In this document: positions 1,199 to 63,800 of the stretch, in pieces | How positions within the stretch are numbered: the stretch's first letter is position 1 | Layout of the letters: each line of letters begins with the position of its first letter | DNA from: an uncultured Selenomonadaceae bacterium | Lineage (GTDB): Bacteria; Bacillota; Negativicutes; Selenomonadales; Selenomonadaceae | DNA length: 64,000 nt | NCBI GenBank assembly: GCA_905235685.1 | Contig: CAJOMO010000003.1 | Location: 1-64,000 of the forward strand | Reading direction: 5' to 3' | Position numbers and translations under genes: made by a program | Notes under the pieces: generated by a model | Databases searched by the model: none | Told to the model about the DNA's origin: nothing | What the model saw: the letters and a program-made list of their open reading frames with translations, nothing else

Positions 1199-1234
1199 AC
1201 AAATATTTATCAACGAATTTCTTTTTTTAAGAGT

Positions 1235-1355
1235 GATCAACTTTCTTTTGGCGCAAAAGAAAGTTGCAAAGAAAACAGCCGCTCAGATAGTCGACTTCCG
1301 GTCGACTAATTCGCGGCGGGGTTCGCGCCGCCATCCGTGGCGGCGGCTTTTTTTT
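1235..1355 (+). repeat. Tri-hairpin intergenic element, copy 1
   Basis: Three hairpins follow each other. A is CAACTTTCTTTT pairing with AAAAGAAAGTTG (1238-1266). B is TAGTCGAC/GTCGACTA inside a GC-rich outer stem (about 1279-1316). C is CGCCGCCA/TGGCGGCG (1326-1345) followed by eight T, an intrinsic terminator. Related copies lie at 10241, 12131, 26946, 48958, 56987, 58115 and 63590. No coding gene runs into this copy from the left on the plus strand, so the terminator either ends a small transcript or insulates the next promoter. Confidence 0.8.
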
Positions 1356-3500: not shown

Positions 3501-4170
3501 AAAAGTTGCCTTTATAACCTGCGTCAACAGCGATTATTGGTATTCGGAATGCGTTTTGTACTTGAAACATTTGAAAATTCCCGACGGTATGAGCGTTGAA
3601 ATTATTCCCGTGCGCGGCGCAAAATCTATGACGGCGGGCTACAATTCGGCTATGAAAATTTCTGACGCGAAATACAAAATTTACCTGCACCAAGATACTT
3701 TTGTTGTGAATAAAAATCTTATCGCCGACCTGCTGAAAATTTTTGCCGATAAAAGTATCGGCGCGGTTGGAATGATAGGCTGTCTGCATTTGCCGATAAC
3801 CGGCGTTTGGTGGGACGGTATGCGGACTTTTGGGCGCGTTTTGCATGCGTGCGAGCCGGAGAGCGTGGTTGATTCCGAATGCGACGAACCGGCGGGCGCT
3901 TATCAGGAAGTTGAATCAGTCGACGGCTTATTTTTGGCGACGCAATATGATTTGCCCTGGCGCGAAGATTTATTTGACGGCTGGCATTTGTACGACACTT
4001 CGCAGTGCAAAGAAATGAGCCGCGCTGGTTACAAAGTTGTTGTGCCGAATCAGTCTGCAGATTTTTGGTGTATTCATTGCCCGAAGGAAAAGCCGCTTGA
4101 CCCGAAATATCGGCGGTATCAGAAAATTTTTCTGCGCGAATACGGCGACGAATTGAATCCGGAGGTTTAG
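3490..4170 (+). CDS. StrF-type glycosyltransferase (family 2-like)
   Basis: 226 residues resembling the StrF-domain glycosyltransferases (Glyco_tranf_2_5). The start KVAFITCVNSDYWYSECVLYL and the central KIYLHQDTFV, where the acidic residues normally bind metal and nucleotide sugar, support this. A later DLPWREDLFDGWHLYD matches the acceptor-side motif of the family. It begins with TTG inside the sir2 end. Its last 63 codons plus the following intergenic bases are repeated in the chimeric ORF at 4172. The sugar and acceptor cannot be read from the sequence. Confidence 0.75.
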   Translation: MDDKKVAFITCVNSDYWYSECVLYLKHLKIPDGMSVEIIPVRGAKSMTAGYNSAMKISDAKYKIYLHQDTFVVNKNLIADLLKIFADKSIGAVGMIGCLHLPITGVWWDGMRTFGRVLHACEPESVVDSECDEPAGAYQEVESVDGLFLATQYDLPWREDLFDGWHLYDTSQCKEMSRAGYKVVVPNQSADFWCIHCPKEKPLDPKYRRYQKIFLREYGDELNPEV

Positions 4171-4437
4171 CGTGAACGATATTAAACCCAGCTTGACGAA
4201 TTTTCTTGACGGCTGGCATTTGTACGACACTTCGCAGTGCAAAGAAATGAGCCGCGCTGGTTACAAAGTTGTCGTGCCGAATCAGTCTGCAGATTTTTGG
4301 TGTATTCATTGCCCGAAGGAAAAGCCGCTTGACCCGAAATATCGCCGGTATCAGAAAATTTTTCTGCGCGAATACGGCGACGAATTGAATCCGGAGGTTT
4401 AGCGTGAACGATATTAAACCCAGTTTGACGAATTTTC
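3974..4437 (+). repeat. 232-bp tandem duplication spanning a gene junction
   Basis: The unit 3974-4205 is repeated at 4206-4437 with only about three base differences. It covers the last 63 codons of the glycosyltransferase, the GGAGG ribosome site and the first 12-13 codons of the next gene. TTGACGG occurs at 3974, 4206 and again at 4438, so a 7-bp microhomology marks the junctions. The few differences suggest a recent event. Confidence 0.95.
4172..4402 (+). pseudogene. Chimeric 76-residue ORF made by the tandem duplication
   Basis: The first ~13 residues (MNDIKPSLTNFLD) equal the start of the gene at 4404, and the remaining 63 equal the C-terminus of the glycosyltransferase at 3490. The frame stayed open across the junction, and GGAGG lies six bases before its GTG, so it is likely translated. 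The product lacks the nucleotide-sugar-binding half and should not be a working transferase. I treat it as a duplication by-product. It could still act as a decoy acceptor or partner domain, but nothing in the sequence shows that. Confidence 0.85.
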
Positions 4438-6958: not shown

Positions 6959-9140
6959 ATGTCAATTTCAATAAGAAACAACGCAGGCGCTCAATTGGCG
7001 CTCCGTGAACTCATGAACAACAACAACAAAGCTACAAAGGATTTGAAAAAAATTTCCGGCGGGCAAAAAATCACTTCCGCCCAAGACGACGCCGCAGGTT
7101 ACGCAATCAGCTCAAGAATGCAAAGCCAAATCCTTAGCCTTAATCAAGACCAAGAAAATATTCAAAATGGTATTTCAATGCTAAAAATTGCGGGGGGGGG
7201 GGGCAGAAAATATTATTGATGTCATTAAAAATTTAAAAGCCCTAGCCATTGACGCGGCGACCGATACCAACACTGACGAAGACCGCGCAATTCTCCAGAA
7301 AAATCTTGACCAGGCGCTGGGAAATATAAACGACATAGCCACGACAACCAATTACAATGGCAAAAATCTTTTGGACGGCTCTTTGGCGGCGGAAATTCAA
7401 AGCGCGTCGACCGCCACGCAAACGCAAACTAAAACTGTTTATACGACCATTGAAACTACAGTAACCGTTGAAACGACAACCACCATTGAAACCACAACAA
7501 GCGTTACTGACTTTGTCGAAGTGCCGACCACAACAACAGTTTCGACTACAACCACCGTTGAAACTACAACAACTGTTGAATCGACGGTTACAACTACAGA
7601 AACTTCAACCACTCCGATTGAAATTAGTGGCAATTCTATAACGGAGGACGGCGTTTATCAGCTGGCGAGCGATTTTACCGGCACGCTGAATATTTCGGCG
7701 CAAAATGTAAAAATCGTCGGCAACGGTACGCTTAATAACGCAACAATTAACGTCACGGCGAGCAATGCTAATCTTTGGATTCAAAATTTGAATATAACCA
7801 ATTCGGGTGAGATGAACGCGATAAAATTCGGCAGCGGCACAAATACGCTGATTGTACAAGGCGAGAATAATTTAAATTGTAGTGATAATTGGCAATATGC
7901 TGTAATAAATATCGGCGGAGGCTTAAACATACTTGGCTCAGGAAAAATAGTTGCTGATAATACGACTGACGGCTCCGGCGCTGCCGGTATTGGAAATGAT
8001 GTTAATGAAAGATCGGACGCAAGCATTAATATAGGTGGCAGCGTTGTAGTTACAGCTTCGGTATCCGGATCATACGGCGCAGGAATAGGCAGCGGAGCAC
8101 AGAGCTCTATTGGCGATATTACAATTGGCGGCAGTGCCAATGTTACGGCTAGTTCGAATTATGGAGCGGGAATAGGTAGCGGCGCTTATGGCTCTGTTGG
8201 AAATATCACAATCGGTGATAGTGCCAATGTTACGGCTCGTTCAACACATGCCCTATACATAGGCTTCGGACATGATGGTTCTGGTAATTCTTGCGGAACT
8301 GTGGCGTTAGGTAATGATATTACACTTTATCCACCTGGGACTTTTTATTTACTTTCAAGGGGTGTTCTGGTTACCAATTTGACAACAAATACCATCTTAT
8401 CAACATTAACTGAGCTGGACGAGCCCACAAATACGATTACCACAACTACGACTGAAACTGTCGAAGTGCCTACCACAACAACAGTTTCGACTACAACCAC
8501 CATTGAAACTACAACAACAATTGAGACCACAACAACCATTAACACCACAACAACCGTCACTGAACTTGTCGAAGTTGAAACTACAACAACTGTTGCAGAA
8601 ACTGTAACTGAAACTGTCGAAGTGCCGGTAACCTTTTTGAAAAATGTTATGTTCCATGTTGGCGATAAATCCGGACAAGCTTTGAGTATCAGAATTGCCG
8701 ATATGCATACAAAATCTTTGAAAGCTAATGTGCCGAGCGAGGCTGACAAGGAGCGGCTGATAAATCTTAAAAATGACGCCGATAAATACAAGGCTTTTCA
8801 AGAATTGCTTGACCAAGTGCAAGAGATGACGCTGGACGATATAAATTTGCGAACGCGCGAAAGTGCCAATATTGCAATTCGCGTTATCGACAGCGCGCTG
8901 GAATATGCGACGGATCAGGCGACGAACATTGGCGCTTATCTGCAACGCCTGGAACACACGCTTGAAAACGTAACGACCACCGCAGAAAATACGCAGGCAG
9001 CCGAATCTGTTATCCGTGACGCCGATATGGCGCACGAAATGACAGAATACACCCGCGCAAATATTTTATCGCAGGCGGCGCAGGCTGTACTTGCGCAGGC
9101 TAACAAAGACAGCAGCAACGTGATTAGTTTATTAAAATGA
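6959..9140 (+). CDS. Flagellin with beta-solenoid insert, out of frame at a 12-G tract
   Basis: Residues 1-78 are a normal flagellin N-terminus (MSISIRNNAGAQLALRELMN, TSAQDDAAGYAISSRM) and the last ~90 a normal C-terminus (ESVIRDADMAHEMTEYTRAN, QAAQAVLAQANK, ending SLLK). Between them lie two Thr-rich linkers (about residues 160-218 and 492-558) around a ~270-residue domain rich in GAGIGSG and ITIGGSANVTA repeats, which looks like a right-handed beta-helix. The gene is split at 7192-7203 by twelve G: the first frame stops soon after (…GRKYY) and the second continues to 9140. Eleven G would restore one 726-residue protein. I read it as phase-variable and OFF in this copy. A sequencing error in the homopolymer is the alternative. 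ribD follows 12 bases downstream. Confidence 0.85.
7192..7203 (+). repeat. Poly-G tract (12 G) in flagellin
   Basis: Twelve consecutive G lie at codons 78-82. Loss of one G joins the frames as IAGGGAENII. The tract sits early, before the assembly domains are complete, where slippage acts as an on/off switch. Confidence 0.95.
7515..8516 (+). repeat. In-frame direct repeats flanking the flagellin insert
   Basis: About 57 bp starting GTCGAAGTGCC at 7515 recur at 8460 with two differences in the compared stretch. The offset is 945 bp, a multiple of three. Both copies encode VEVPTTTTVSTTTT followed by more Thr repeats. Recombination between them would remove or exchange the beta-solenoid without breaking the frame. 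Confidence 0.85.
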
Positions 9141-9152
9141 CGGAGAAATTTT

Positions 9153-10241
9153 ATGACGGACGAAATTTTTATGAGCGAGGCTTTGAAAATTGCCCGCAAC
9201 GCTGAAGGGCGCACTTCACCAAATCCACTGGTTGGCGCGGTGATTGTCAACGGCGGAAGGATTATCGCCGAAGGCTGGCACAGAAAAGCCGGTACACCGC
9301 ACGCTGAAATTCACGCGTTGAATATGGCGGGCGAATTGGCGAAAGGCGCTACAATGTATGTGACGCTTGAGCCGTGTTCGCATTTTGGAAGGACGCCGCC
9401 CTGCGCGAATAGGATTGTTGAATCGGGCGTTAAGCGCGTTGTCGTGGCAATGACAGATCCAAATCCGCTGGTTGCGGGGCGCGGTATCGAAATTTTGAGA
9501 GCCGCCGGAATTGCCGTTGACGTCGGCATTTTGGAAAATGACGCGCGCAGGCTCAATGAGGTTTTTATCAAGTACATCACGAAAAAAATTCCGTTTGTGA
9601 CGGCGAAATTTGCGAGTTCGTTGGACGGGAAAATTGCGACGGTTAGCGGCGAATCTCAATGGATTAGCGGCGAAAAATCGCGGGCGTTTACTCACCACCT
9701 GCGCGATATTTCGGACGGAATAATGGTCGGCGTGGGTACGGTTTTGGCTGACAATCCGAGTTTGACGACGCGCCTTGAAAATGGCAAAAATCCTGTGCGA
9801 ATAGTGATTGACAGCCGCGCACGGACGCCGCTTGACGCTAAAATTTTGACTGATAAATTGACTGAAACGATCATTGCGGTAACGGCAAATGCTCCCGCCG
9901 AAAAAATTTCTGCGCTGGAAAATGCGGGCGCGAAAATCATTGTTGCCGGTGACGGCGAACGCGTTGATTTGAAAATTTTGATGGCGGAACTTGCGAAACT
10001 GGAAATTACTTCGATATTGCTTGAGGGCGGCGGCACTTTGAATTTTTCAATGATTCGCGCAGGACTGGTTGATAAAGTTTACGCGTTTATTGCGCCGAAG
10101 ATTTTGGGCGGTAAAAATGCATTGACGCCGGTTGAGGGCGCGGGCTTTGAGAAATTATTGGACGCAGTTATTTTAACAAATTTGCAAGCAGAAAAAATTG
10201 GCGACGACATTTTAATAAGTGGCTACACATCCAACAGTTAA
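9153..10241 (+). CDS. ribD: Bifunctional riboflavin biosynthesis deaminase/reductase RibD
   Basis: 362 residues with two domains, catalysing steps two and three of riboflavin synthesis. Residues 1-~145 are the deaminase, with the zinc site HAE and PCSHFGRTPPC and the GRTSPNPLVGAV start. The rest is the NADPH-dependent reductase (KFASSLDGKIA, SRARTPLDAKIL, LLEGGGTLNFS). Length is normal. The gene stands alone, with no ribE, ribBA or ribH nearby and no room for an FMN riboswitch (12 bases after flagellin), so it may be co-transcribed with flagellin. Confidence 0.96.
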   Translation: MTDEIFMSEALKIARNAEGRTSPNPLVGAVIVNGGRIIAEGWHRKAGTPHAEIHALNMAGELAKGATMYVTLEPCSHFGRTPPCANRIVESGVKRVVVAMTDPNPLVAGRGIEILRAAGIAVDVGILENDARRLNEVFIKYITKKIPFVTAKFASSLDGKIATVSGESQWISGEKSRAFTHHLRDISDGIMVGVGTVLADNPSLTTRLENGKNPVRIVIDSRARTPLDAKILTDKLTETIIAVTANAPAEKISALENAGAKIIVAGDGERVDLKILMAELAKLEITSILLEGGGTLNFSMIRAGLVDKVYAFIAPKILGGKNALTPVEGAGFEKLLDAVILTNLQAEKIGDDILISGYTSNS

Positions 10242-10352
10242 GAGGCGCGCACGGACGCGCGCCCGAACCCCGCCGCGAATTAGTCGACCGGAAGTCGACT
10301 ATCTGAGCGGCTGTTTTCTTTGCAACTTTCTTTTGCGCAAAAGAAAGTTGAT
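10241..10352 (-). repeat. Tri-hairpin intergenic element, copy 2
   Basis: Minus-orientation copy. Hairpin A is CAACTTTCTTTTGCGCAAAAGAAAGTTG in pairing terms (10323-10350), B has the same TAGTCGAC/GTCGACTA core as copy 1, and C is GGCGCGCG/CGCGCGCC-type without a T-run. It starts two bases after the ribD stop. Confidence 0.8.
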
Positions 10353-11291: not shown

Positions 11292-11328
11292 AATCGGACA
11301 GCCAAAAATTAACTGCCCGATTTTTTTT
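11292..11328 (+). terminator. Terminator between convergent PNPOx-like gene and birA
   Basis: AATCGGACAG pairs with CTGCCCGATT with one internal mismatch, followed by eight T on the plus strand. The T-run includes the birA stop codon on the other strand. Confidence 0.75.
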
Positions 11329-12109
11329 ATTTTGTGCGAATGGAAACATCGCCTGCGTAAAAAGTTCTCTGTTCGCCGCCAATATCGACAATCAGCGCGC
11401 CGTCAGCCGCAATGTCAATCGCCTTGCCCGTGAAAATCTCGCCGCTGTCCGCCTCTATCACGTCGATATTTTTGCCGAGCGTGATATTGTATTCGCGCCA
11501 AATCTTGAAAACTTCGCTGAAACTTTTTTGATTATAAAGCCTGTCAAATTCCTCAAGCACCGCGTTAAAAAATTCTGCGCGATTCAAATTGCCGCCGTTC
11601 ATTTCGGAAAGAGACGCCGCCACGTCGCGGATATTTTCCGGAAATTCGGCGCGCTCGATATTCACGTTAATGCCAATGCCGACGACAACAAAATTCACGC
11701 GGTCGACCTCGGCGCTCATTTCAGTCAAAATGCCAACCAACTTTCGCCCGCTGTACATAATATCATTTGGCCACTTTATTTCGGCGCGCAGGTTAAACCG
11801 CTCCATCGCGCAGGCAATAGCCGCCGCCGCCATCAGGGTAAATTTGGGCGCGTCATTGGGCAAACATTGTGGGCGCAGAATTATACTAAACCACAGCCCT
11901 TTATCGCGCGGTGAAAAAAATTTTCTGTCGAGTCTGCCTTTGCCGCCGGTTTGTTCCTCGGCAATAATGACAGTACCGTCAGCCGCGCCATTTTTCGCCA
12001 AAGTTTTTGCCAATTCGTTTGTAGAATCAACTACATTTTTTCGAATAATATTGACGCCGACAACTTTGCTGTTCGTAATAATACGCTTAATTTTGTCAAA
12101 GATTTGCAA
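11327..12109 (-). CDS. birA: Biotin--[acetyl-CoA-carboxylase] ligase, no repressor domain
   Basis: 260 residues that activate biotin with ATP and attach it to carrier lysines, here most likely the decarboxylase carrier encoded at 24299. Motifs: KNVVDSTNELAK, the adenylate loop GGKGRLDRKFFSP, IKWPNDIMYSGRKLVGIL and GIGINVN. The ~60-residue winged-helix domain of BirA repressors is missing, so it should not regulate biotin genes. I prefer the TTG at 12109 because AGGTG then sits at normal ribosome-site spacing. A GTG nine bases upstream overlaps that site. Confidence 0.93.
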   Translation of the reverse strand: MQIFDKIKRIITNSKVVGVNIIRKNVVDSTNELAKTLAKNGAADGTVIIAEEQTGGKGRLDRKFFSPRDKGLWFSIILRPQCLPNDAPKFTLMAAAAIACAMERFNLRAEIKWPNDIMYSGRKLVGILTEMSAEVDRVNFVVVGIGINVNIERAEFPENIRDVAASLSEMNGGNLNRAEFFNAVLEEFDRLYNQKSFSEVFKIWREYNITLGKNIDVIEADSGEIFTGKAIDIAADGALIVDIGGEQRTFYAGDVSIRTK

Positions 12110-12130
12110 ATGATTCACCTACGCAACTTA

Positions 12131-12243
12131 AGAGGCGCGCACGGACGCGCGCCCCGCCCGCGCTAGTCACGTGATGTGACTAATGCGGGCAGTTTTCTTT
12201 CTTTGCAAGCGTTTCTTTCTTTCCGAAAAGAAAGAAATGCTGA
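12131..12243 (-). repeat. Tri-hairpin intergenic element, copy 3
   Basis: Minus orientation, between asparaginase and birA. Hairpin A differs in sequence (CATTTCTTTCTTTTC pairing with GAAAGAAAGAAACG), B has a TAGTCACATCACGTGACTA core, and C is the GGCGCGCG type. Structure is retained while stem sequences differ from copies 1 and 2. Confidence 0.8.
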
Positions 12244-12250
12244 CATAAAT

Positions 12251-13246
12251 TTAAAAAACCGCTTCGATAGTACCAATAATTTCGCCGCGATGATTTTTCA
12301 AAACCGGAGGAAATTTTTTATCGAGCTGTTCAGATTCATTTTTGGTGAGCAAATCCAATTTTTTCAAAACAGCAATAACCATGGGCGTAACCGCGGCGTA
12401 ACTGCCATCTTCGATTTTGAACGCAATACCGAGATTTTCGTCCTTGACGCAAAGGCAATAAACCGCGTCCGCGCCGATTTTCGCGATAACCCTTCCGCCG
12501 GTAATTTCCGAAACAGCCAAATCAATTCTGCCCGTGCCGGAAATAACTTGCGGATAAGCGCTCATTGCGTCACGAATTTTCGTTGCGGCAAGCTCGTATT
12601 CGCCCCAATCGCCCAATTTCGGCGTCGACAGCCGCGCATACGCCAGCGCCATATTGTAAAGCGGCAAATAAAATACCGGCACGCCGCAACCGTCAATTCC
12701 AATTTCAAGTTCGGATTCCGGAACTTTCGCTGCCATTGCCACGTGCTTGAAAATGATTTTCTGCGCCTCATGCTCCGGTTTCGTGTAGCCTTCGATTGGT
12801 ACGCCCAACATCATTGCCAACGCGATTATCTGTGAATGTTTGCCCGAACAAGGATTGTGAACCGGTAAAACTTTTTCGCCTTTGGAAATTAAATCTTTGA
12901 ACGCCTTGCCACTCATCGGGCGAACTACGCCACAGTCTAATACCGATTCGTCAAGCCCCAATTTCGCCAAAATCCCGCGCACCAACGCAACATGATTTTC
13001 CTCGCCGCTGTGCGACGACACTAAAACCGCAAGTTCCTCCTGCGAAATGTTGTATTTTTCTAAGCCGCCATTTTTCACGAACGGCAAAGCTTGAAACGGT
13101 TTCGCCGCACTTCGCCAAAACATGGGCAAATGCGCATTACCAACTTCAGAAATAATTTCGCCCGCACAATTCACCGCCGCCACATCGCCACGGTGAATAT
13201 TCTCAACGTGTCCTGCGCGAGTGTACTGCAAAACAATTTCGCTCAT
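12251..13246 (-). CDS. Asparaginase II family protein (AnsA/AspG-II type)
   Basis: 331 residues matching the Asparaginase_II family (thermolabile L-asparaginase, Rhizobium type), which converts asparagine to aspartate and ammonia. Diagnostic parts are MFWRSAAKPFQALPFV, VSSHSGEENHVALV, HNPCSGKHSQIIALA and IGIDGCGVPVFYLPL. This family is unrelated to the common type I/II enzymes. Start ATG 13246 overlaps the upstream stop (ATGA) and has GGGGG seven bases before it. It is the last gene of the nucleotide-sugar operon, an odd pairing. Confidence 0.88.
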   Translation of the reverse strand: MSEIVLQYTRAGHVENIHRGDVAAVNCAGEIISEVGNAHLPMFWRSAAKPFQALPFVKNGGLEKYNISQEELAVLVSSHSGEENHVALVRGILAKLGLDESVLDCGVVRPMSGKAFKDLISKGEKVLPVHNPCSGKHSQIIALAMMLGVPIEGYTKPEHEAQKIIFKHVAMAAKVPESELEIGIDGCGVPVFYLPLYNMALAYARLSTPKLGDWGEYELAATKIRDAMSAYPQVISGTGRIDLAVSEITGGRVIAKIGADAVYCLCVKDENLGIAFKIEDGSYAAVTPMVIAVLKKLDLLTKNESEQLDKKFPPVLKNHRGEIIGTIEAVF

Positions 13247-14151
13247 ATTTTCGCCCCCAAAAATTTCTGTATGCCCGCGCGTAAATTTATTTTCGGATTC
13301 CAATCGGGCAAGGTTTGAAATTTCGTCCACGGTATCATAACTTCCCGCTGACGATACGGTCGCCCGCCCCATTCAATTGAAAGTTTTTTGCCCGCAACTT
13401 CCTCAAAAATTTTCACAACTTCGCGCAGAGATATTGGATTCAACGACGACACGCCGTAAGTGCCGCAATAATCATATTTGCCCGCGAAAAGATATTCGCC
13501 CGCCAAAACAAACGCCTCAACCACATCGTCAACGTAAACAATATCAATCAGCTGCGCGCCCGGCGACATCTTCAAAGTTTCGCCGGTAGTTGCAATTTTT
13601 TTCAGCAAACCCAAAATCTTGCCGCGCCTGTCGTCCGCGCCGTACGTGTCAAACAAATGCAGCGAGATGCACTTCAAATTTTGGGCTTCAATGTAAAATC
13701 TGAGAATGTTCTCAAAGCCTTCTTTCGTCGCCGCGTAAAAATTCACAGGGCTGTATTCAGCGTCTTCAAAATGTTGCTGCATCGTTCCGGTGTTCACGAA
13801 ATTGTAAATATTATTCGCCGTCATGGCGTCAAGAATTTCCGCGCCGAAAGTTATATTGCTTTGAATCAAATTTTTAATATCGCCGAATTTGTGAGCCGCC
13901 AAAACATTTGCCGCCAAATGATAAACCATGTCCGGCTTATTGCCTTCAGCGCAAAGATTATTCACCACGTCCAAAATCGTATTTTCGTCGCTGTAAACGC
14001 AAAATTTGACATTTTCGCGCAAATTTTTATTGAGCTCGTCAATTTTTGAAGTCGGTCTAACCAGCGCAAAAACTTCATGCCCGTCATTTACCAGCCGCGC
14101 ACCCAAATGATGCCCGATAAAGCCGGTGATACCCGTCATTAAAATTTTCAT
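13243..14151 (-). CDS. NAD(P)-dependent sugar epimerase/reductase (extended SDR)
   Basis: 302 residues, extended short-chain dehydrogenase fold. GITGFIGHHLG is the dinucleotide-binding motif, and YHLAANV and FYAATKEG (Tyr and Lys of the YxxxK catalytic pair) follow. It resembles CDP-abequose/paratose synthase-type reductases, which fits a cytidylyltransferase at the head of the operon, but substrate specificity is inferred from context. ATG at 14151 with AGGGG. It ends in a four-base overlap with asparaginase. Confidence 0.8.
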   Translation of the reverse strand: MKILMTGITGFIGHHLGARLVNDGHEVFALVRPTSKIDELNKNLRENVKFCVYSDENTILDVVNNLCAEGNKPDMVYHLAANVLAAHKFGDIKNLIQSNITFGAEILDAMTANNIYNFVNTGTMQQHFEDAEYSPVNFYAATKEGFENILRFYIEAQNLKCISLHLFDTYGADDRRGKILGLLKKIATTGETLKMSPGAQLIDIVYVDDVVEAFVLAGEYLFAGKYDYCGTYGVSSLNPISLREVVKIFEEVAGKKLSIEWGGRPYRQREVMIPWTKFQTLPDWNPKINLRAGIQKFLGAKI

Positions 14152-17894: not shown

Positions 17895-17927
17895 GTCGAT
17901 TCTCCTTTGCAAAAAAATATCGATGAA

Positions 17928-17956
17928 ATTTTAACATTCCACCGAAAAATTATCAA
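17928..17956 (-). promoter_or_regulatory. Promoter of the nucleotide-sugar operon
   Basis: On the minus strand TTGATA and TAAAAT are exactly 17 bp apart, about 35 bases before the rfbF start. The -10 lies in an imperfect inverted repeat that could be an operator. Confidence 0.7.
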
Positions 17957-17970
17957 CAAAATAAATTTTT

Positions 17971-18096
17971 TTAAACCGGCGTCGGATTCGAATTATTTAA
18001 AATCGGCGCAGGATTTTCTTTCGCTAAAATTATTGGCTCTTCCGGAATTTTCTTTGCAAGTTCAATCCGCGAGCTGTTATTTGTGCTGAAATTCAT
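17971..18096 (-). pseudogene. Duplicated FtsH C-terminal tail ORF (41 residues)
   Basis: Encodes a peptide from MNFSTNNSSRIELAKK to NPTPV that mirrors the FtsH tail ending NPTPI. It has its own ATG by chance and a promoter copy 22 bases upstream, but no ribosome site. It keeps the frame and an almost unchanged last 25 residues, while the first ~10 have diverged. I regard it as a decaying duplication product. Translation is possible but unsupported. Confidence 0.7.
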
Positions 18097-18117
18097 TTGC
18101 AAAAAAATATCGGTGAA

Positions 18118-18146
18118 ATTTTAACATTCCACCGAAAAATTATCAA
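18118..18146 (-). promoter_or_regulatory. Second copy of the TTGATA/TAAAAT promoter
   Basis: The duplicate of the rfbF promoter lies directly after the ftsH stop with the same 17-bp spacing. It would transcribe through the tail-ORF copy toward rfbF. Confidence 0.6.
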
Positions 18147-18156
18147 CCGCAAATTT

Positions 18157-20058
18157 TTAAATCGGCGTCGGATTCGAATTGTTCAAAATCGGCGCAGGAT
18201 TTTCTTTCGCCAAAATTATTGGCTCGTCCGGAATTTTTTTAGTGAGCTCAATCATTGGGCTATCGACTGTGCCGAAAACAATTTCTTTGAGCTCCGCCGC
18301 CGTCAAAGTTTCTTTGTCAATCAACATCTGCGCGATTCTGTCAAGTTTATCGCGATTCTCATTGATAATCGTCCGGCAAGATTCGTAAGCCTCTTCCATA
18401 TATTTGTGAACTTCCTTGTCAATTTCGCCGGCAACTTCCTCTGAATAATTGCGCTGATTTTGCCCGAAATACATTTGCGTTTGGTCGCTGCCGTAAGCCA
18501 CAGGACCGAGAACGTCGCTCATACCGTATTGCATAATCATTGAGCGGACAATCCGGCTCGCCTGCTGAATATCCTGCGAAGCGCCGGTTGAAATTTCATT
18601 CAAAACAATTTCCTCGGCAACGCGCCCGCCCATTGCCACCTTCAGCCTGTCCAAAAGTTCAGAGCGCGTGGCGTAATTCCTGTCTTCCTTCGGCAACATC
18701 AGCGTATAACCGCCAGCCCGCCCGCGCGGAATGATCGTAACTTTGTGAACGGGGTCGGCGTGTTTCAACATCATACCAACCAGCGCGTGCCCGCCTTCGT
18801 GATAAGCCGTCAATTTCTTTTCGTCGTCGCTCATAACTTTGGATTTGCGCTCCGGTCCCGCCATGACGCGCTCAATCGATTCTTCAAGCTCAAGCATATT
18901 AATTTCGTGCTTATTGCGCCGCGCCGCCAAAAGTGCCGCTTCATTAACCAAATTAGCCAAATCTGCGCCCGTGAAGCCAGGCGTCCGCCGCGCTAACACG
19001 TCTAAATCAACGTCTTTGCCAATCGGCTTGCCTTTGGAATGAACTTTCAAAATCGCAATTCTGCCGGTGATATCGGGCTTGTCAACGACAATCTGTCTGT
19101 CAAATCTGCCTGGTCTTAAAAGCGCCTGGTCAAGGATATCGGGGCGATTCGTGGCGGCGATTATGATTATGCCTTCGTTCGCCGCAAAGCCGTCCATTTC
19201 AACCAAAAGCTGATTCAAAGTCTGTTCGCGTTCGTCGTGCCCGCCGCTGAAACCCGCGCCGCGTTGCCTGCCGACTGCGTCAATTTCGTCAATGAAGATT
19301 ATACACGGCGAATTTTTCTTAGCCTGCGCGAATAAATCACGAACACGCGACGCACCCACGCCTACGAACATTTCAACGAAATCTGAGCCGCTGATTGAGA
19401 AAAATGCTACGCCCGCTTCGCCCGCAACAGCCTTTGCCAATAAAGTTTTGCCCGTGCCTGGAGGACCGAAAAGCAAAACGCCCTTAGGAATGCGCGCGCC
19501 CAAATCGTTAAACTTTTTCGGGTGCTTGAGAAATTCGACAACCTCCTGGAGTTCTTCCTTAGCTTCGTCCGCGCCCGCCACGTCGTTGAAAGTGACTTTG
19601 ACTTTGTCGCCGCTTGCCATTTTCGCCCGACTTTTGCCGAATGACATTACCTTACTGCCCGTGCCGTGCGTCTGATTCATTATGAAAAACCACACGCCGA
19701 CTAAAATTAAAATTGGCAAAAATGACGAAAGGAGCGTCACCCACCACGGCGGCTCTTTGGGATTTTGTGCAATTATTTCGACGCCGGCAGTTTCCAATTT
19801 CGTTACAAGCGCATCGTCGCCTATCGGGAAATCCGGCGCTGTCGTGTTAAATTCTGTGCCGTCTTTGCGCGTGGCTTTGATTGCATTTCTGGTTAAGACG
19901 ACCTTTGAAACTTCGCCCGATTCTACGCGTTGCAAAAATTGTGAATAGCTCAATTCTTCGATTGTCACCTGCGGCTTCACTGAAAAATAATCATACGCCG
20001 TTATCGCAACGAATATCACCAACAAATAAAAGCCGACGTTGCGTAAAAAATTATTCAA
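18157..20058 (-). CDS. ftsH: ATP-dependent zinc metalloprotease FtsH
   Basis: 633-residue membrane AAA+ protease. Two N-terminal membrane segments (about residues 7-25 and 107-127) flank a periplasmic domain. Walker A GPPGTGKT, pore motif region [17 protein letters not shown], Walker [12 protein letters not shown], second region of homology [20 protein letters not shown] and zinc site HEGGH follow. TTG start with GGAG upstream. It ends the ftsB-S1-tilS-hpt-ftsH order known from Firmicutes. Its 3' end is duplicated just downstream. Confidence 0.97.
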
Positions 20059-21626: not shown

Positions 21627-21640
21627 AAAGCACCCCCTGA

Positions 21641-26910: not shown

Positions 26911-26945
26911 TCGTCAAACACTCCTTACTAAAAAAATCGAATCCC

Positions 26946-27057
26946 GAGGCGCGCACGGATGCGCGCCCGAACCCGCCCGCCGCTAATGAGCGTGAAGCGA
27001 ATTATCCGGCGGGCTGCTTTCTTTGCCAGCGTTTCTTTCTAGAAAGAAATGCTGATA
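26946..27057 (-). repeat. Tri-hairpin intergenic element, copy 4
   Basis: Minus orientation between the nitroreductase and mce. Hairpin A is GCATTTCTTTC/GAAAGAAACGC with a very short loop. B has a different core (TAATTCGCTTCACGCTCATTA) inside CCCGCC/GGCGGG. C is GGGCGCGC/GCGCGCC type. Confidence 0.75.
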
Positions 27058-27061
27058 TTAA

Positions 27062-27658
27062 TCATCTAAAGACTTTAACGCGCTCTGACACGGGAACTTT
27101 TTCAATCGCGCCCGCCGGTTGTAATTTTTCGCCGAAAACCATTTCTGCAGCGAGTTCCCAATTATCCGGAATATTGAACGCCCGTATAATGTCAACGTTG
27201 ATAAGCGGGTTGTAATGCTGAATATTCACGCCCAAACCCATATTCTCAAGTTCCGTCCAAATTGCAAATTGGAGCATACCATTAGCCTGCGCCGCCCAAA
27301 TCGGAAAATGATCCGCATAGGTAGGGAATTTCTTTTGCATACCGTGAACAATATCAATTTCTTCAAAAAATAAAATCGTACCGTAAGCGGCTTTGAAGGT
27401 TTCAAGTTTCTGTTCAGTTTTGGCAAAAGCTTCTTCAGTCAAAATTTCCTTCATCTTGGAAATCGTGATATCCCAAACATTTTCGTGGTATTCGTCCATT
27501 GCTACGACAACACGCTGACTCTGAATATTGAAAGGCGAAGGAACTTCCTTAGTCATACGCTCGACAACCGCGATAATTTCAGATTCAAGCACCGGAATAT
27601 TTTTGCCCAGTGCGTAAATCGAACGGCGGTTAATGACAGCATTTGTAAAACAACTCAT
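27062..27658 (-). CDS. Nitroreductase-family oxidoreductase
   Basis: 198 residues, FMN-dependent nitroreductase fold. AVINRRSIYALGK is the FMN phosphate-binding start, SPFNIQSQRVVVAM the second contact, and NMGLGVNIQHYNPLI the C-terminal FMN loop. Substrate unknown. Relatives act on nitroaromatics or as NAD(P)H oxidases. Located between the CoA-transferase and mce, with a repeat on each side. ATG after AAAGGAAG. Confidence 0.87.
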   Translation of the reverse strand: MSCFTNAVINRRSIYALGKNIPVLESEIIAVVERMTKEVPSPFNIQSQRVVVAMDEYHENVWDITISKMKEILTEEAFAKTEQKLETFKAAYGTILFFEEIDIVHGMQKKFPTYADHFPIWAAQANGMLQFAIWTELENMGLGVNIQHYNPLINVDIIRAFNIPDNWELAAEMVFGEKLQPAGAIEKVPVSERVKVFR

Positions 27659-33727: not shown

Positions 33728-33739
33728 CGGTATTTTTAA

Positions 33740-33879
33740 AATCAATATTCAAATCGTGCGTGAAGATAATCAGCGTGCGATTTTTTTTTGTACAATCGGC
33801 TTGAATTGCGGCGATTAAATTTTCAGCGCAAATTTTATCGAGATTGGCTGTCGGTTCGTCCAAAATCAAAATATCCGGA
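33740..33879 (-). pseudogene. Duplicated 3' fragment of the CydC-like gene
   Basis: This stretch repeats 33934-34073 (offset 194 bp) and encodes a copy of the ATPase end: ILILDEPTANLDKICAE then TKKNRTLIIFTHDLNIDF. About one base in ten differs. It lacks everything upstream of Walker B and cannot function. It lies downstream of the intact gene on the same strand, overlapping nothing. Confidence 0.88.
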
Positions 33880-33898
33880 CGATGAGCCGATGGATTTT

Positions 33899-35317
33899 TT
33901 AATTATTGAAATTCGACAGGTTAATTTTTGGAAAATCTAAATTCAAATCGTGCGTGAAAATAATCAGCGTGCGATTTTTTTGTGTACAATCGGCGGTAAT
34001 TGCGGCGATTAATTTTTCAGCGCAAATTTTATCGAGACCGGCTGTCGGTTCGTCCAAAATCAAAATATCCGGATTTTTGGCAAGGGCAAGGGCAATTTGC
34101 AGACGTCCGCGTTCGCCGCCCGAAAGATTCGCGCCGTCTTCACCGATAAATTTATCCGCGTCGAAATCTTCAAGCTGGCAAATTTTCAGCGCGGCGGAAA
34201 TATTTTCGTCGGTGGCGTAGATTTTGAAATTGGCGCGTATCGATTCGGCAAAAATATAATTCGTGGCAGTGGCGGCGGCGATTTTCCCGTTGACAGCCAC
34301 AACGCCGTTTTTCGGCTCAAGAATTTTCGCCATCAGATAAAGCAAAGTGGTTTTGCCCGCACCGCTCTCTCCGGTTATCGCCCAATGTTCCCCGCGCCCG
34401 ATTTGCAGATTGAAATTTTTAAAAATCGGCGAATTGTAGCCAAAATCCACGCCGCGAAATTCCACGGCAAGATCAGTTTTAAATTCCTGCGCGAAATTAA
34501 TTTTTTCGTCAAGCGCGGGAATTTTTTTATAGCTGCGGACGGCGCGCGGTACGGCTGAATAAATTTCCAGCGCGGCAATCAAAATCAGCGCCCAAACTGT
34601 AAGCTCAATTTTCCCAACGTTCGCGCAGAGTTCAAACAAAATCGCGCAGATACCAATCACCGCCAAAATATTTATCAGCGTATCGTGATTGATTTTCTGC
34701 GCTTGAATTTTAATTTTCGCGTCGCCGAAATTTTTTGCCGCCTTGTTAAGTTGATTAATCGCCGGAGCCGTGCCGTAAATTTTAAATTCGTCGCGGGCGT
34801 CGTTGAAGTCCAAAATTTTTCCGCGGTAAAGCGAATCGTCCACTTCGGCAAATTTTTTCGGCATTAATCCAATAAAAAAAATCGCTGGTAAAATCAGCGC
34901 CCAAATTTTTATTCGCAAAAACAAAAAATACGTCAGCAAAATCGTTAAAAGCGCCGCCGTCGATATCGGCAAAACTACGCGCGGTAAAAAATCTTTCAGC
35001 AAATCCGCCGTGATTGTAAGCTCGTGCAAAGCCTCGCCCTCGCGCAGTGCAACTTTCGCCGCCGCCCGTCTGAAAAGTTTTTCGCGCAGGTCGTCAAGCA
35101 CTTTGAAAATTATTTTGTGCGTCAAAAATCTGTCGAAGTATCGCAAAACCGCCCGCGAAATTCCCGCCGTTCGAACTAAAGTTATTCCGATTGACAACGC
35201 GCTGATTGGCGGGTGCAACGCCGCGGACGCAATGAGCCACGCCGCCGACGCCATTAATAAAATTTCCGAGAGCGCCGCTGACACATTCGCCAAAATCGCC
35301 GGTAAAAATTTTCTCAC
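33899..35317 (-). CDS. cydC: CydC-like ABC exporter subunit
   Basis: 472 residues, a half-transporter: five to six membrane segments (~1-270) opening with SAAWLIASAALHPPI and VRTAGISRAVLRYFDRFLTH, which is the CydC signature. The ATPase follows with Walker A GESGAGKTT, LSGGERGRLQIALAL and Walker B ILILDEPTAGLD. CydDC exports cysteine/glutathione and supports cytochrome bd. It is ~90 residues short of common CydC, and no cydD is adjacent. GTG start overlaps the preceding permease stop. Its 3' end is duplicated at 33740. Confidence 0.85.
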   Translation of the reverse strand: MRKFLPAILANVSAALSEILLMASAAWLIASAALHPPISALSIGITLVRTAGISRAVLRYFDRFLTHKIIFKVLDDLREKLFRRAAAKVALREGEALHELTITADLLKDFLPRVVLPISTAALLTILLTYFLFLRIKIWALILPAIFFIGLMPKKFAEVDDSLYRGKILDFNDARDEFKIYGTAPAINQLNKAAKNFGDAKIKIQAQKINHDTLINILAVIGICAILFELCANVGKIELTVWALILIAALEIYSAVPRAVRSYKKIPALDEKINFAQEFKTDLAVEFRGVDFGYNSPIFKNFNLQIGRGEHWAITGESGAGKTTLLYLMAKILEPKNGVVAVNGKIAAATATNYIFAESIRANFKIYATDENISAALKICQLEDFDADKFIGEDGANLSGGERGRLQIALALAKNPDILILDEPTAGLDKICAEKLIAAITADCTQKNRTLIIFTHDLNLDFPKINLSNFNN

Positions 35318-48506: not shown

Positions 48507-48960
48507 GCAGGACGCGGCGATAATCAAGGCGCTGCAGGAAGATTTTCCGCTTTGTGAAGAACCGTATAAAATTTTGGCGGCTCGCGCAGGTGTCAGCGAA
48601 GAAGAATTTTTGCGGCGCGTCCAAGATTTTGTTGACGATAAGAAAATCCGGAAATTGGGCGCAGTTCTCCGCCACCGTGAAGTGGGTTTCAAATTCAATG
48701 CGCTGTGTGCCTGGGAAGTTCCGGCTGAAAATCTCGATGAAGTTGCCAAAATTATGAGCGCTCACCCCGCCGTTTCTCATTGCTACGACAGAAATACCGC
48801 GCCGAATTGGAATTATAATTTGTACACGATGATTCACGCCAAAACCCGCGAAGAATGCGACGCGATTATTGCCGAACTTTCGCGGCTTACCGGTGTTGAA
48901 AATTTTCAGGCGCTCTATTCCAAACGCGAATGGAAAAAAACCGGTATGAAGTATTTTTGA
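48484..48960 (+). CDS. ahbB: Siroheme decarboxylase subunit (AhbB-like)
   Basis: 158 residues, paralogous to its neighbour and overlapping it by 23 bases. TEQDAAIIKALQEDFPLCEEPYKIL, IRKLGAVLRHREVGF, CAWEVPAENLDEVAKIMSAHPAVSHCYDRNT and WNYNLYTMIHAKTREEC are family blocks with the candidate catalytic His and Tyr. A lone hairpin A of the intergenic element begins at the stop codon. The later enzymes ahbC and ahbD are not in the window. Confidence 0.87.
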   Translation: MCNSNLTEQDAAIIKALQEDFPLCEEPYKILAARAGVSEEEFLRRVQDFVDDKKIRKLGAVLRHREVGFKFNALCAWEVPAENLDEVAKIMSAHPAVSHCYDRNTAPNWNYNLYTMIHAKTREECDAIIAELSRLTGVENFQALYSKREWKKTGMKYF

Positions 48961-48990
48961 TCAACTTTCTTTTGGCGCAAAAGAAAGTTG
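48958..48990 (+). repeat. Solo hairpin A of the intergenic element, copy 5
   Basis: CAACTTTCTTTT, GGCGC loop, AAAAGAAAGTTG begins one base after the ahbB stop. Hairpins B and C are absent. Confidence 0.8.
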
Positions 48991-49027
48991 AGTTGATAAT
49001 TTTTTTGTAGAGTGCAGGAGATTTATC

Positions 49028-56638: not shown

Positions 56639-56986
56639 ATGAATATTATTGAGATTCTCGAAAAGGAACAGCTTAAAAAAGACGTGCCGCAATTCGGTCC
56701 TGGCGATACGGTTAAAGTCCACGCAAAAATCGTTGAAGGCAACCGCGAACGTATCCAGATTTTTGAAGGCGTCGTTATCGGCAGACAGGGTACTGGTATT
56801 CGCGAAATGTTTACCGTGCGTCGTATTTCGTACGGCGTAGGCGTCGAAAGAATGTTCCCCGTACATTCGCCGCGTGTTGATAAAATTGAAGTTGTCCGTC
56901 GCGGCGCTGTTCGTCGTGCGAAACTCTATTATCTGCGTAAACTCACCGGTAAAGCCGCTCGTATCAAAGAAAAAAAATCTAGTTAA
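56639..56986 (+). CDS. rplS: Ribosomal protein L19
   Basis: 115 residues of the 50S subunit at the 30S interface. [64 protein letters not shown] and [17 protein letters not shown] are canonical. ATG 56639 with AGGGAGG. A longer upstream frame starts before the promoter and is not used. Transcribed alone and ended by an intergenic element. The usual trmD-rimM neighbours are absent. Confidence 0.98.
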
Positions 56987-57094
56987 TCAACTTTCTTTTA
57001 TCGTAAAAGAAAGTTGCAAAGAAAAGCGTGGCGCGGATTGTCACATCACGTGACAAGCGCGCCACAGAGCCGCCCGTCCTTGGGCGGCTTTTTT
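56987..57094 (+). repeat. Tri-hairpin intergenic element, copy 6, with terminator
   Basis: Starts right after the rplS stop. Hairpin A is CAACTTTCTTTT/AAAAGAAAGTTG with an ATCGT loop. B is GTGGCGC/GCGCCAC (57028-57065) enclosing TGTCACATCACGTGACA. C is GCCGCCC/GGGCGGC (57069-57088) followed by six T, serving as the rplS terminator. Confidence 0.85.
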
Positions 57095-57098
57095 CGGT

Positions 57099-57874: not shown

Positions 57875-58066
57875 AAAGAAGGAACGGTCTGGAATGCGCG
57901 AGGACTTTGGTAATGTCTAACCTACATTAATTTTAGGGAATCTGATTTTGTGTCGGCGGATGTAGAGTCGTATTTTCTCAGCGAATAACAGAACCCGAGC
58001 TTAGGATACCCACCTGCTCTGCGCAGGTTTAGGCATTTGGGGAATACGGCATTTTGGACTCCTTTT
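57875..58066 (+). ncRNA. ssrS: Probable 6S RNA
   Basis: No open frame fits here. GGTCTGGAATGC (57886-57897) pairs with GCATTTTGGACT (58049-58060), twelve pairs with wobbles, closing a ~175-base structure. Inside it are GCGAGGAC, a TAATGTCTAACCTACATTA hairpin-like stretch, an asymmetric central region, and ACCTGCTCTGCGCAGGT as an inner stem. TACGGCAT next to the 3' closing strand resembles GCGGCAT in E. coli 6S. Size, closing stem and central bubble fit 6S RNA, which binds and inhibits housekeeping RNA polymerase. It has its own promoter and terminator. SRP RNA and tmRNA are less fitting: no tag frame or CCA end is seen. Confidence 0.7.
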
Positions 58067-58069
58067 TTG

Positions 58070-58106
58070 AAAAGGAATTGCTGGCGTTTGTCGGCAGTTC
58101 CTTTTT
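58070..58106 (+). terminator. Terminator of the 6S-like RNA
   Basis: AAAAGGAATTGCTG pairs over 14 positions with CGGCAGTTCCTTTT, followed by T. Confidence 0.9.
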
Positions 58107-58114
58107 GCGTTGCG

Positions 58115-58220
58115 ATCAACTTTCTTTTGGCGCAAAAGAAAGTTGCAAAGAAAACAGCCGCTCAGATAGTCGACTTCCGGTCGACTAATTCGCGGCGGGG
58201 TTCGGGCGCGCGTCCTCTTA
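58115..58220 (+). repeat. Tri-hairpin intergenic element, copy 7 (C hairpin truncated)
   Basis: Hairpins A (58117-58145) and B (58167-58187 core) are identical in sequence to copy 1. The C hairpin keeps only its first arm GGGCGCGCGTCC and goes straight to TCTTA, lacking the GTGCGCGCC arm of copy 2. Confidence 0.8.
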
Positions 58221-63570: not shown

Positions 63571-63589
63571 ACAATAAAACCGAAACTAC

Positions 63590-63761
63590 GGGCGCGCACG
63601 GACGCGCGCCAACCCCGCGCCTAGTCACGTGATGTGACTAATGCGCGGCTTGTTATCGGTTGCTTAAGCGTTTGCGGAGGAGCTTACACGATCAGTTTTC
63701 CACTGTTTTTCTTTCTTTGCAAGGCGTTTCTTGCTTTTTACAAAAAGAAAGAAATGCCGAT
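63590..63761 (-). repeat. Tri-hairpin intergenic element, copy 8 (interrupted)
   Basis: Minus orientation after leuD. C is the GGCGCGCG type (63591-63610), B has the TAGTCACATCACGTGACTA core, and A is a longer CATTTCTTTCTTTTTG/CAAGAAACGCC-like stem at 63719-63759. About 50 bases not found in other copies separate A from B. Confidence 0.75.
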
Positions 63762-63800
63762 AAAAACCATAAATTTTCTTAAAGGAGCGGATTATTTACT

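Follow-up and report, generated by a model that had tools for sequence, protein, structure and literature searches.

An intergenic stretch in the genome of an uncultured member of the Selenomonadaceae contains a non-coding repeat of about 115 bases, in which three hairpins and a linker follow one another in the order C, B, linker, A. The stems of this tri-hairpin element differ between copies, and the locus raises the question of whether the two arms of a stem change together because the fold is under selection, as a sequence-only reading of this DNA had proposed. The element, its modules and the related copies in the window (the whole 64,000-nucleotide stretch of DNA that was analysed) are listed in Table 1. 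None of 200 dinucleotide shuffles folded as well as the 118-nt element, with z scores on the two strands of -6.9 and -6.7 for DNA and -7.1 and -7.9 for RNA.

Table 1. The tri-hairpin element, its flanking genes and its copies in the window
Feature	Positions	Strand	Hairpin A form	Sequence and context
Whole tri-hairpin element	12128..12245	+	GCGTTTCTTT../..AAAGAAATGC	118 nt; between birA and a minus-strand ORF
birA	11327-12118	-		flanks the element at 12128-12245
Minus-strand ORF	12251-13372	-		other flank of the element at 12128-12245
Hairpin C	12134..12153	+		GGCGCGC-ACGGAC-GCGCGCC
Hairpin B	12156..12190	+		outer stem GCCCGC/GCGGGC, small internal loop, inner stem TAGTCAC/GTGACTA, loop GTGAT
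Linker	12193..12204	+		TTTTCTTTCTTT; T/C-rich; mirrors the hairpin A pyrimidine arm, parallel to the purine arm
Hairpin A	12208..12241	+		AGCGTTTCTTTCTTT-CCGA-AAAGAAAGAAATGCT
Copy	1219..1345	-	CAACTTTCTTTT/AAAAGAAAGTTG	C stem CGCCGCC, B TAGTCGAC, A CTTTCTTTT; orthologous site in G004 empty
Copy	10238..10350	+	CAACTTTCTTTT/AAAAGAAAGTTG	B TAGTCGAC, A CTTTCTTTT; directly 3' of ribD
Copy	26942..27062	+	GCGTTTCTTT../..AAAGAAATGC	B TAAT-GA-GC-GTGAA-GC-GA-ATTA, A GTTTCTTTC
Hairpin A by itself	48960..48991	+	CAACTTTCTTTT/AAAAGAAAGTTG	begins at stop codon
Copy	56980..57095	-	CAACTTTCTTTT/AAAAGAAAGTTG	B TTGTCAC, A CTTTCTTTT; T tract after C stem on plus strand, terminator-like
Copy	58098..58220	-	CAACTTTCTTTT/AAAAGAAAGTTG	5' arm of hairpin C lost
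Copy	63585..63766	+	GCGTTTCTTT../..AAAGAAATGC	about 64 extra nt separating B from linker

The window holds seven copies of the element and one solitary hairpin A. Both of the hairpin A forms that the sequence-only reading had set against each other as a two-arm change are present, but the pairing it gave as CATTTC/GAAACG was read on the minus strand and contains one A.C mismatch, which is a G.T pair on the plus strand. Both B cores, TAGTCGAC/GTCGACTA and TAGTCAC/GTGACTA, are likewise found in the window, but the step from TAGTCGAC to TAGTCAC, which had been read as paired change, is a change in length and reflects an exchanged module. True double changes were identified among otherwise near-identical copies in the source genome (GTCAC/GTGAC versus GTCGC/GCGAC, and TAG/CTA versus TTG/CAA). 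A 6S RNA (RF00013, 59.3 bits) at window positions 57883-58064 (+) directly adjoins the copy at 58098-58220.

The source genome (G000), from the rumen, is 1.96 Mb in size and 99.8% complete. It contains at least 80 distinct copies identified by BLASTN with three query types, a lower bound obtained by locating copies by search and then extracting them as stretches. At this sensitivity, BLASTN matches were limited to members of the same genus (15 of 60 relatives). A covariance model, which scored 150 candidates per genome at most and therefore also gives lower bounds, found at least 17-148 copies per genome in 12 of the 15 congeners and at least 5 or 6 in two more. The window element and eight loci holding the element or a related module had no match in Rfam, and our search of the literature for the repeat sequence itself returned nothing relevant.

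Among 96 distinct copies from congeners, standard pairs occupy 98.4% of the paired cells in an alignment that was fitted to the structural model and so flatters pairing. Double changes occur at 15 of the 16 tested pairs, and the covariation score is 0.599, compared with at most 0.082 for partners in a slid register. By the corrected G statistic the structural pairs rank 1-8, 10, 11 and 14 among 5671 column pairs, and partner columns have near-equal parsimony change counts (for example 16/16, 14/14 and 13/13). At E<0.05, 11 of the 16 pairs tested show more covariation than simulations along a FastTree phylogeny in which each column underwent as many changes as observed; a single tree is only approximate here, because the copies exchange modules. 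The genome-wide and the cross-species tests thus both bear out covariation, which exceeds what phylogeny would produce, and the claim that selection acts on a folded structure is supported by the tree simulation, the slid-register controls and the behaviour of three strands in hairpin A and the linker, described below. Although the sequences drift, the two arms and the third strand change in concert; hence what is retained is the folded shape. The folded single strand of the repeat is probably what evolution conserves, a grading that we give jointly to the whole REP-like reading set out below.

The composition of the pairs bears on whether RNA or DNA is folded. With one misaligned outer pair set aside, the cells comprise 1208 Watson-Crick pairs, 4 G-U pairs and 2 A-C pairs. 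Ordinary structured RNA has many more G-U pairs, and their scarcity fits a DNA-level constraint, or correction alongside selection, better than a purely RNA-level constraint; as judged from sequence, it favours folding as single-stranded DNA rather than RNA. The conserved G.T pair in hairpin A and the pyrimidine character of the third strand would make the C-to-A strand the one that folds. Both features would also suit a transcript of that strand, and a C-to-A transcript folding in mRNA 3' ends, as a stabiliser or a CsrA-type binding site, could be under selection at the RNA level. Copies are positioned behind stop codons, with the element end often within a few bases of the stop. The stem of hairpin C is variable and its loop, CANGGAYG, is nearly invariant across copies; this loop presumably resembles the CsrA consensus, and a CsrA gene is present in the genome. 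However, G-U and A-C pairs are similarly scarce among the approximately 1220 cells, the copies are balanced between the strands (41 and 39 in the source genome), and they lie in either orientation with respect to the gene upstream, the complementary sense being weakly favoured (58 versus 33, p=0.011). The loop of hairpin B is GTGA or NGGA depending on type, and in about half of the copies it is GTGA. We regard a purely RNA-level element as unlikely, and a CsrA target as the sole explanation was rejected, since it is compatible with the C loop but not with the B loops or the scarcity of G-U pairs.

The linker is a candidate third strand for hairpin A. It is closer to the reversed pyrimidine arm in 151 copies and to the direct arm in 9, with 59 ties. 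Its changes track those of the hairpin A arms, so that three strands covary: linker TTTTCTTT occurs with arm CTTTCTTTT, CTTTTCTTT with TTTCTTTTC, and TTTTCTCTTT with TTTCTCTTTT. Among distinct combinations the parallel run between linker and purine arm is 7.96, compared with at most 7.24 in all 1000 permutations, and within the genus alone the parallel match is 8.56, compared with at most 7.93 when permuted. This is the pattern expected of a pyrimidine-motif intrastrand triplex, which would form on the C-to-A strand. The PIT/TM class is defined by three tracts on the same strand that can form a hairpin and a third Hoogsteen strand, with stems of 6-15 nt; here the linker, pyrimidine and purine tracts are 7-12 nt long and the mirror relation holds at 151:9. 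In vivo footprints of the E. coli TM motif did not reveal a stable triplex (PMC4666352).

The third strand also bears on quasi-palindrome correction, in which template switching inside hairpins copies changes from one arm to the other with no selection on the fold. The near-perfect Watson-Crick stems, in which G-U intermediates are almost absent, are in keeping with such a process. The G.T pair of hairpin A nevertheless persists, most copies retain mismatched internal loops between the perfect stems of hairpin B, and the loops are conserved while the stems drift. The linker, moreover, follows hairpin A as a mirror and not as an inverted copy, which the mechanism cannot generate. The retained internal loops, the conserved loops with drifting stems and the mirrored linker together argue that correction is not the whole story, and we consider it quite improbable as an explanation by itself.

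Convergent gene pairs flank 31 copies in the source genome and 34 in congeners, and co-directional sites hold 43 and 48. At divergent sites there is a single copy in the source genome and only 6 in congeners. Convergent sites are over-represented relative to the gaps in the window (p=0.0009). Orientations are mixed within contigs as well as balanced overall, and a lagging-strand bias was rejected. An A-rich stretch before hairpin C, equivalent to a T tract after C on the complementary strand, is present at 51 of 60 convergent sites and 42 of 85 others (p=9e-6). A GC hairpin followed by a T tract is thus available on the complementary strand only, and no T tract after C was found in the other direction. 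The A tract at convergent sites suggests that the element may be used as a terminator from the A side. If the elements were nothing more than terminators of this organism, resembling one another as terminators generally do, their position 3' of genes and the A tract beside C at convergent sites would be accounted for, but we think this very improbable, given that termination needs no 115-nt three-module architecture with specific loops, that the T tract is absent in one direction, that about half of the co-directional copies have no A tract and that sites in a sister species are empty.

Comparison with the congener G004 showed turnover at orthologous sites: four are empty in G004 (including that of the window copy at 1219-1345), and seven are occupied by another variant in the same position. 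Recombination between copies could explain why the occupants of a site differ. The copies in the source genome are mosaics that combine 6 types of B, 4 of A and numerous C stems. A 29-mer that marks a nested mini-hairpin occurs 11 times, always inside tri-hairpin elements, and the B module carrying this insert is joined to several different C and A modules. The association of B types with several A and C types, together with the B module bearing the nested insert, indicates that modules move or are converted separately. The proposal of at least two subfamilies spreading separately is not supported by this pattern, in which all three hairpins have been exchanged among many types.

The nested repeat, GAGCATGCYTTGCTTACGCAARCCRCGCA, is a hairpin of about 30-38 nt with 11 copies in the source genome (loci L328-L338, for example L331, L334 and L336). 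Its position is either within the loop of hairpin C, immediately 5' of GGA, or within hairpin B, 3' of CACGTGA, and related forms are found between the linker and hairpin A (L019, L218 and L226). G004 also has a form of the element of about 170 nt, with CCATTTTCAGGATTGAAAATTTGCGCGG as its B module and some 60 additional nt ahead of the linker, in about a dozen copies (among them L209, L210, L211, L212, L216, L220, L221, L222 and L224).

We looked for the means by which copies might move. Mobilisation in cis by a Y1/RAYT transposase was rejected, as PF01797 has no match in the source genome and a control search matches E. coli; retro-mobilisation was rejected as well, no reverse transcriptase having been found in this 99.8% complete genome. 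The four empty G004 sites, whose flanks have diverged, show no clean target-site duplication. The element has no terminal inverted repeats, its ends being two unlike hairpins. The lack of a Y1/RAYT gene, a reverse transcriptase and a clean duplication counts against the proposed mobility in trans.

Other repeats in the window include tandem duplications of about 232 bp (3968-4431, 98% identity), 190 bp (17903-18284, 82-96%) and 194 bp (33733-34073, 92%). Degenerate ACAACAAC-type repeats at 7434-8594 lie in a 650-aa ORF (7188-9140) and would encode Thr-rich stretches. Short tracts of TTAGGG/TTTAGGAT-like repeats occur at 21638, 26415, 27684, 39223 and 53405.

Among known systems, intrastrand triplex motifs (PIT/TM_ECO) are abundant in bacteria and have been linked to instability (Holder et al. 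2015, PMC4666352; also Hoyne et al., as cited there). The tri-hairpin element resembles them in combining a hairpin with a mirror-type third strand supplied by the same strand, in having many intergenic copies per genome, and in its instability between related strains. TM_ECO is G/C-rich with a fixed consensus, whereas the element is A/T-rich and its three strands covary; A/T-rich motifs are given only as bulk counts in that paper (PMC4666352). The TM_ECO consensus, CCCTCNCCC N3-6 GGGNGAGGG N3 GGGNGAGGG, does not describe the element, which has A/T-rich TTTCTTT tracts. Unlike TM_ECO, the element has two further covarying hairpins preceding the triplex module. With REP/BIME and GTAG/CGTC repeats the element shares high copy number, palindromic and modular structure, and convergent or co-directional sites downstream of coding regions (Di Nocera et al. 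2013, PMC3733652). In the broad sense it is REP-like, having many extragenic palindromic copies with only 1+6 at divergent sites. It differs from REP in its three different hairpins and linker strand and in the lack of a RAYT gene in the source genome, and an unpaired GTAG or CGTC tag at the hairpin foot is absent from the 80 copies. Bacterial MITEs and small mobile sequences (PMC2229807) are similarly short and non-coding, with about 100 copies that vary in presence between species, but the element lacks the terminal inverted repeats of MITEs and no target-site duplication was found.

The linker and hairpin A also occur as a module outside the genus. A scan of genome contigs with the 20-mer TTTCTTTGCAACTTTCTTTT gave many low-complexity coding matches, and only matches with the hairpin were kept; these came from Altibacter, rumen Bacteroidales, Selenomonadales, one Moranbacteria record and others. 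In these matches the sequence 5' of the module is unrelated to the element. In the module from other phyla, and in several congeners, the hairpin loop is complementary to the bases that precede the linker (GGTCC/GGACC, GCTAC/GTAGC, GGCAA/TTGCC, TAGCCC/GGGCTA and GCGAA/TTCGC). Among 79 distinct copies whose loop length is at least 6, 42 carry such a stem of at least 4 bp, whereas permutation gave 7.7 on average and never more than 15. Viral contigs gave three matches to a GG-spaced form, two of which have the same pairing (CGGG/CCCG and TTCGC/GCGAA). The module and its loop-pairing stem together would correspond to an H-type pseudoknot with loop 1 in the groove of stem 2; it is seen in Negativicutes, Bacteroidota and candidate phyla, with the GG-spaced form in viral contigs.

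Telomerase RNA-type pseudoknots contain a major-groove triplex in which a U-rich loop 1 runs alongside the purine strand of stem 2 in parallel orientation. The pseudoknot-bearing module has this topology, with a U/T-rich loop 1, and is not homologous. Unlike the telomerase RNA pseudoknots, most copies in the source genome lack stem 1; the pseudoknot stem was thus rejected as a general feature of that genome, being present in some congeners and in other phyla. The pseudoknot stem was not found in the 11 E. coli K-12 TM_ECO copies checked, which otherwise have the same topology. Four Altibacter loci (L127, L129, L149 and L152) carry a repeat of about 200 nt that is closed by a stem of its own, ATCCTTTTCATC..AAAAGGAT, contains nested hairpins and terminates in the same linker, hairpin and pseudoknot module. 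It is conceivable, if doubtful, that the linker and hairpin module is an ancient cross-phylum recognition end, an H-type pseudoknot with a parallel pyrimidine triplex, read in folded form (single-stranded DNA or RNA) by some machinery that copies short intergenic elements.

Overall, we favour with moderate confidence a reading of the element as a mobile, REP-like repeat in which the known PIT/TM intrastrand-triplex motifs have an A/T-rich relative. The C-B-linker-A strand would fold into two GC-rich hairpins with fixed small loops, followed by the AT-rich hairpin A. The T/C linker would line the purine arm of hairpin A in parallel, forming T.A-T and C.G-C triples in an intrastrand triplex, to which related modules elsewhere would add a pseudoknot stem. 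Copies would arise and disappear, and be rebuilt one module at a time, at gene 3' ends, where they may be tolerated, with some enzyme presumably acting in trans. Between converging genes the complementary C hairpin and its T tract would probably serve as an intrinsic terminator.

Until now, catalogues of bacterial intrastrand triplex motifs have come from pattern searches, and evidence of selection on the third strand has been scant. In this element, comparison across many copies and species shows the third strand changing in step with the two arms of the hairpin, and in related copies from other phyla the pseudoknot stem changes likewise. The element thus offers a testable fold with dozens of natural variants, which serve as ready-made mutants.
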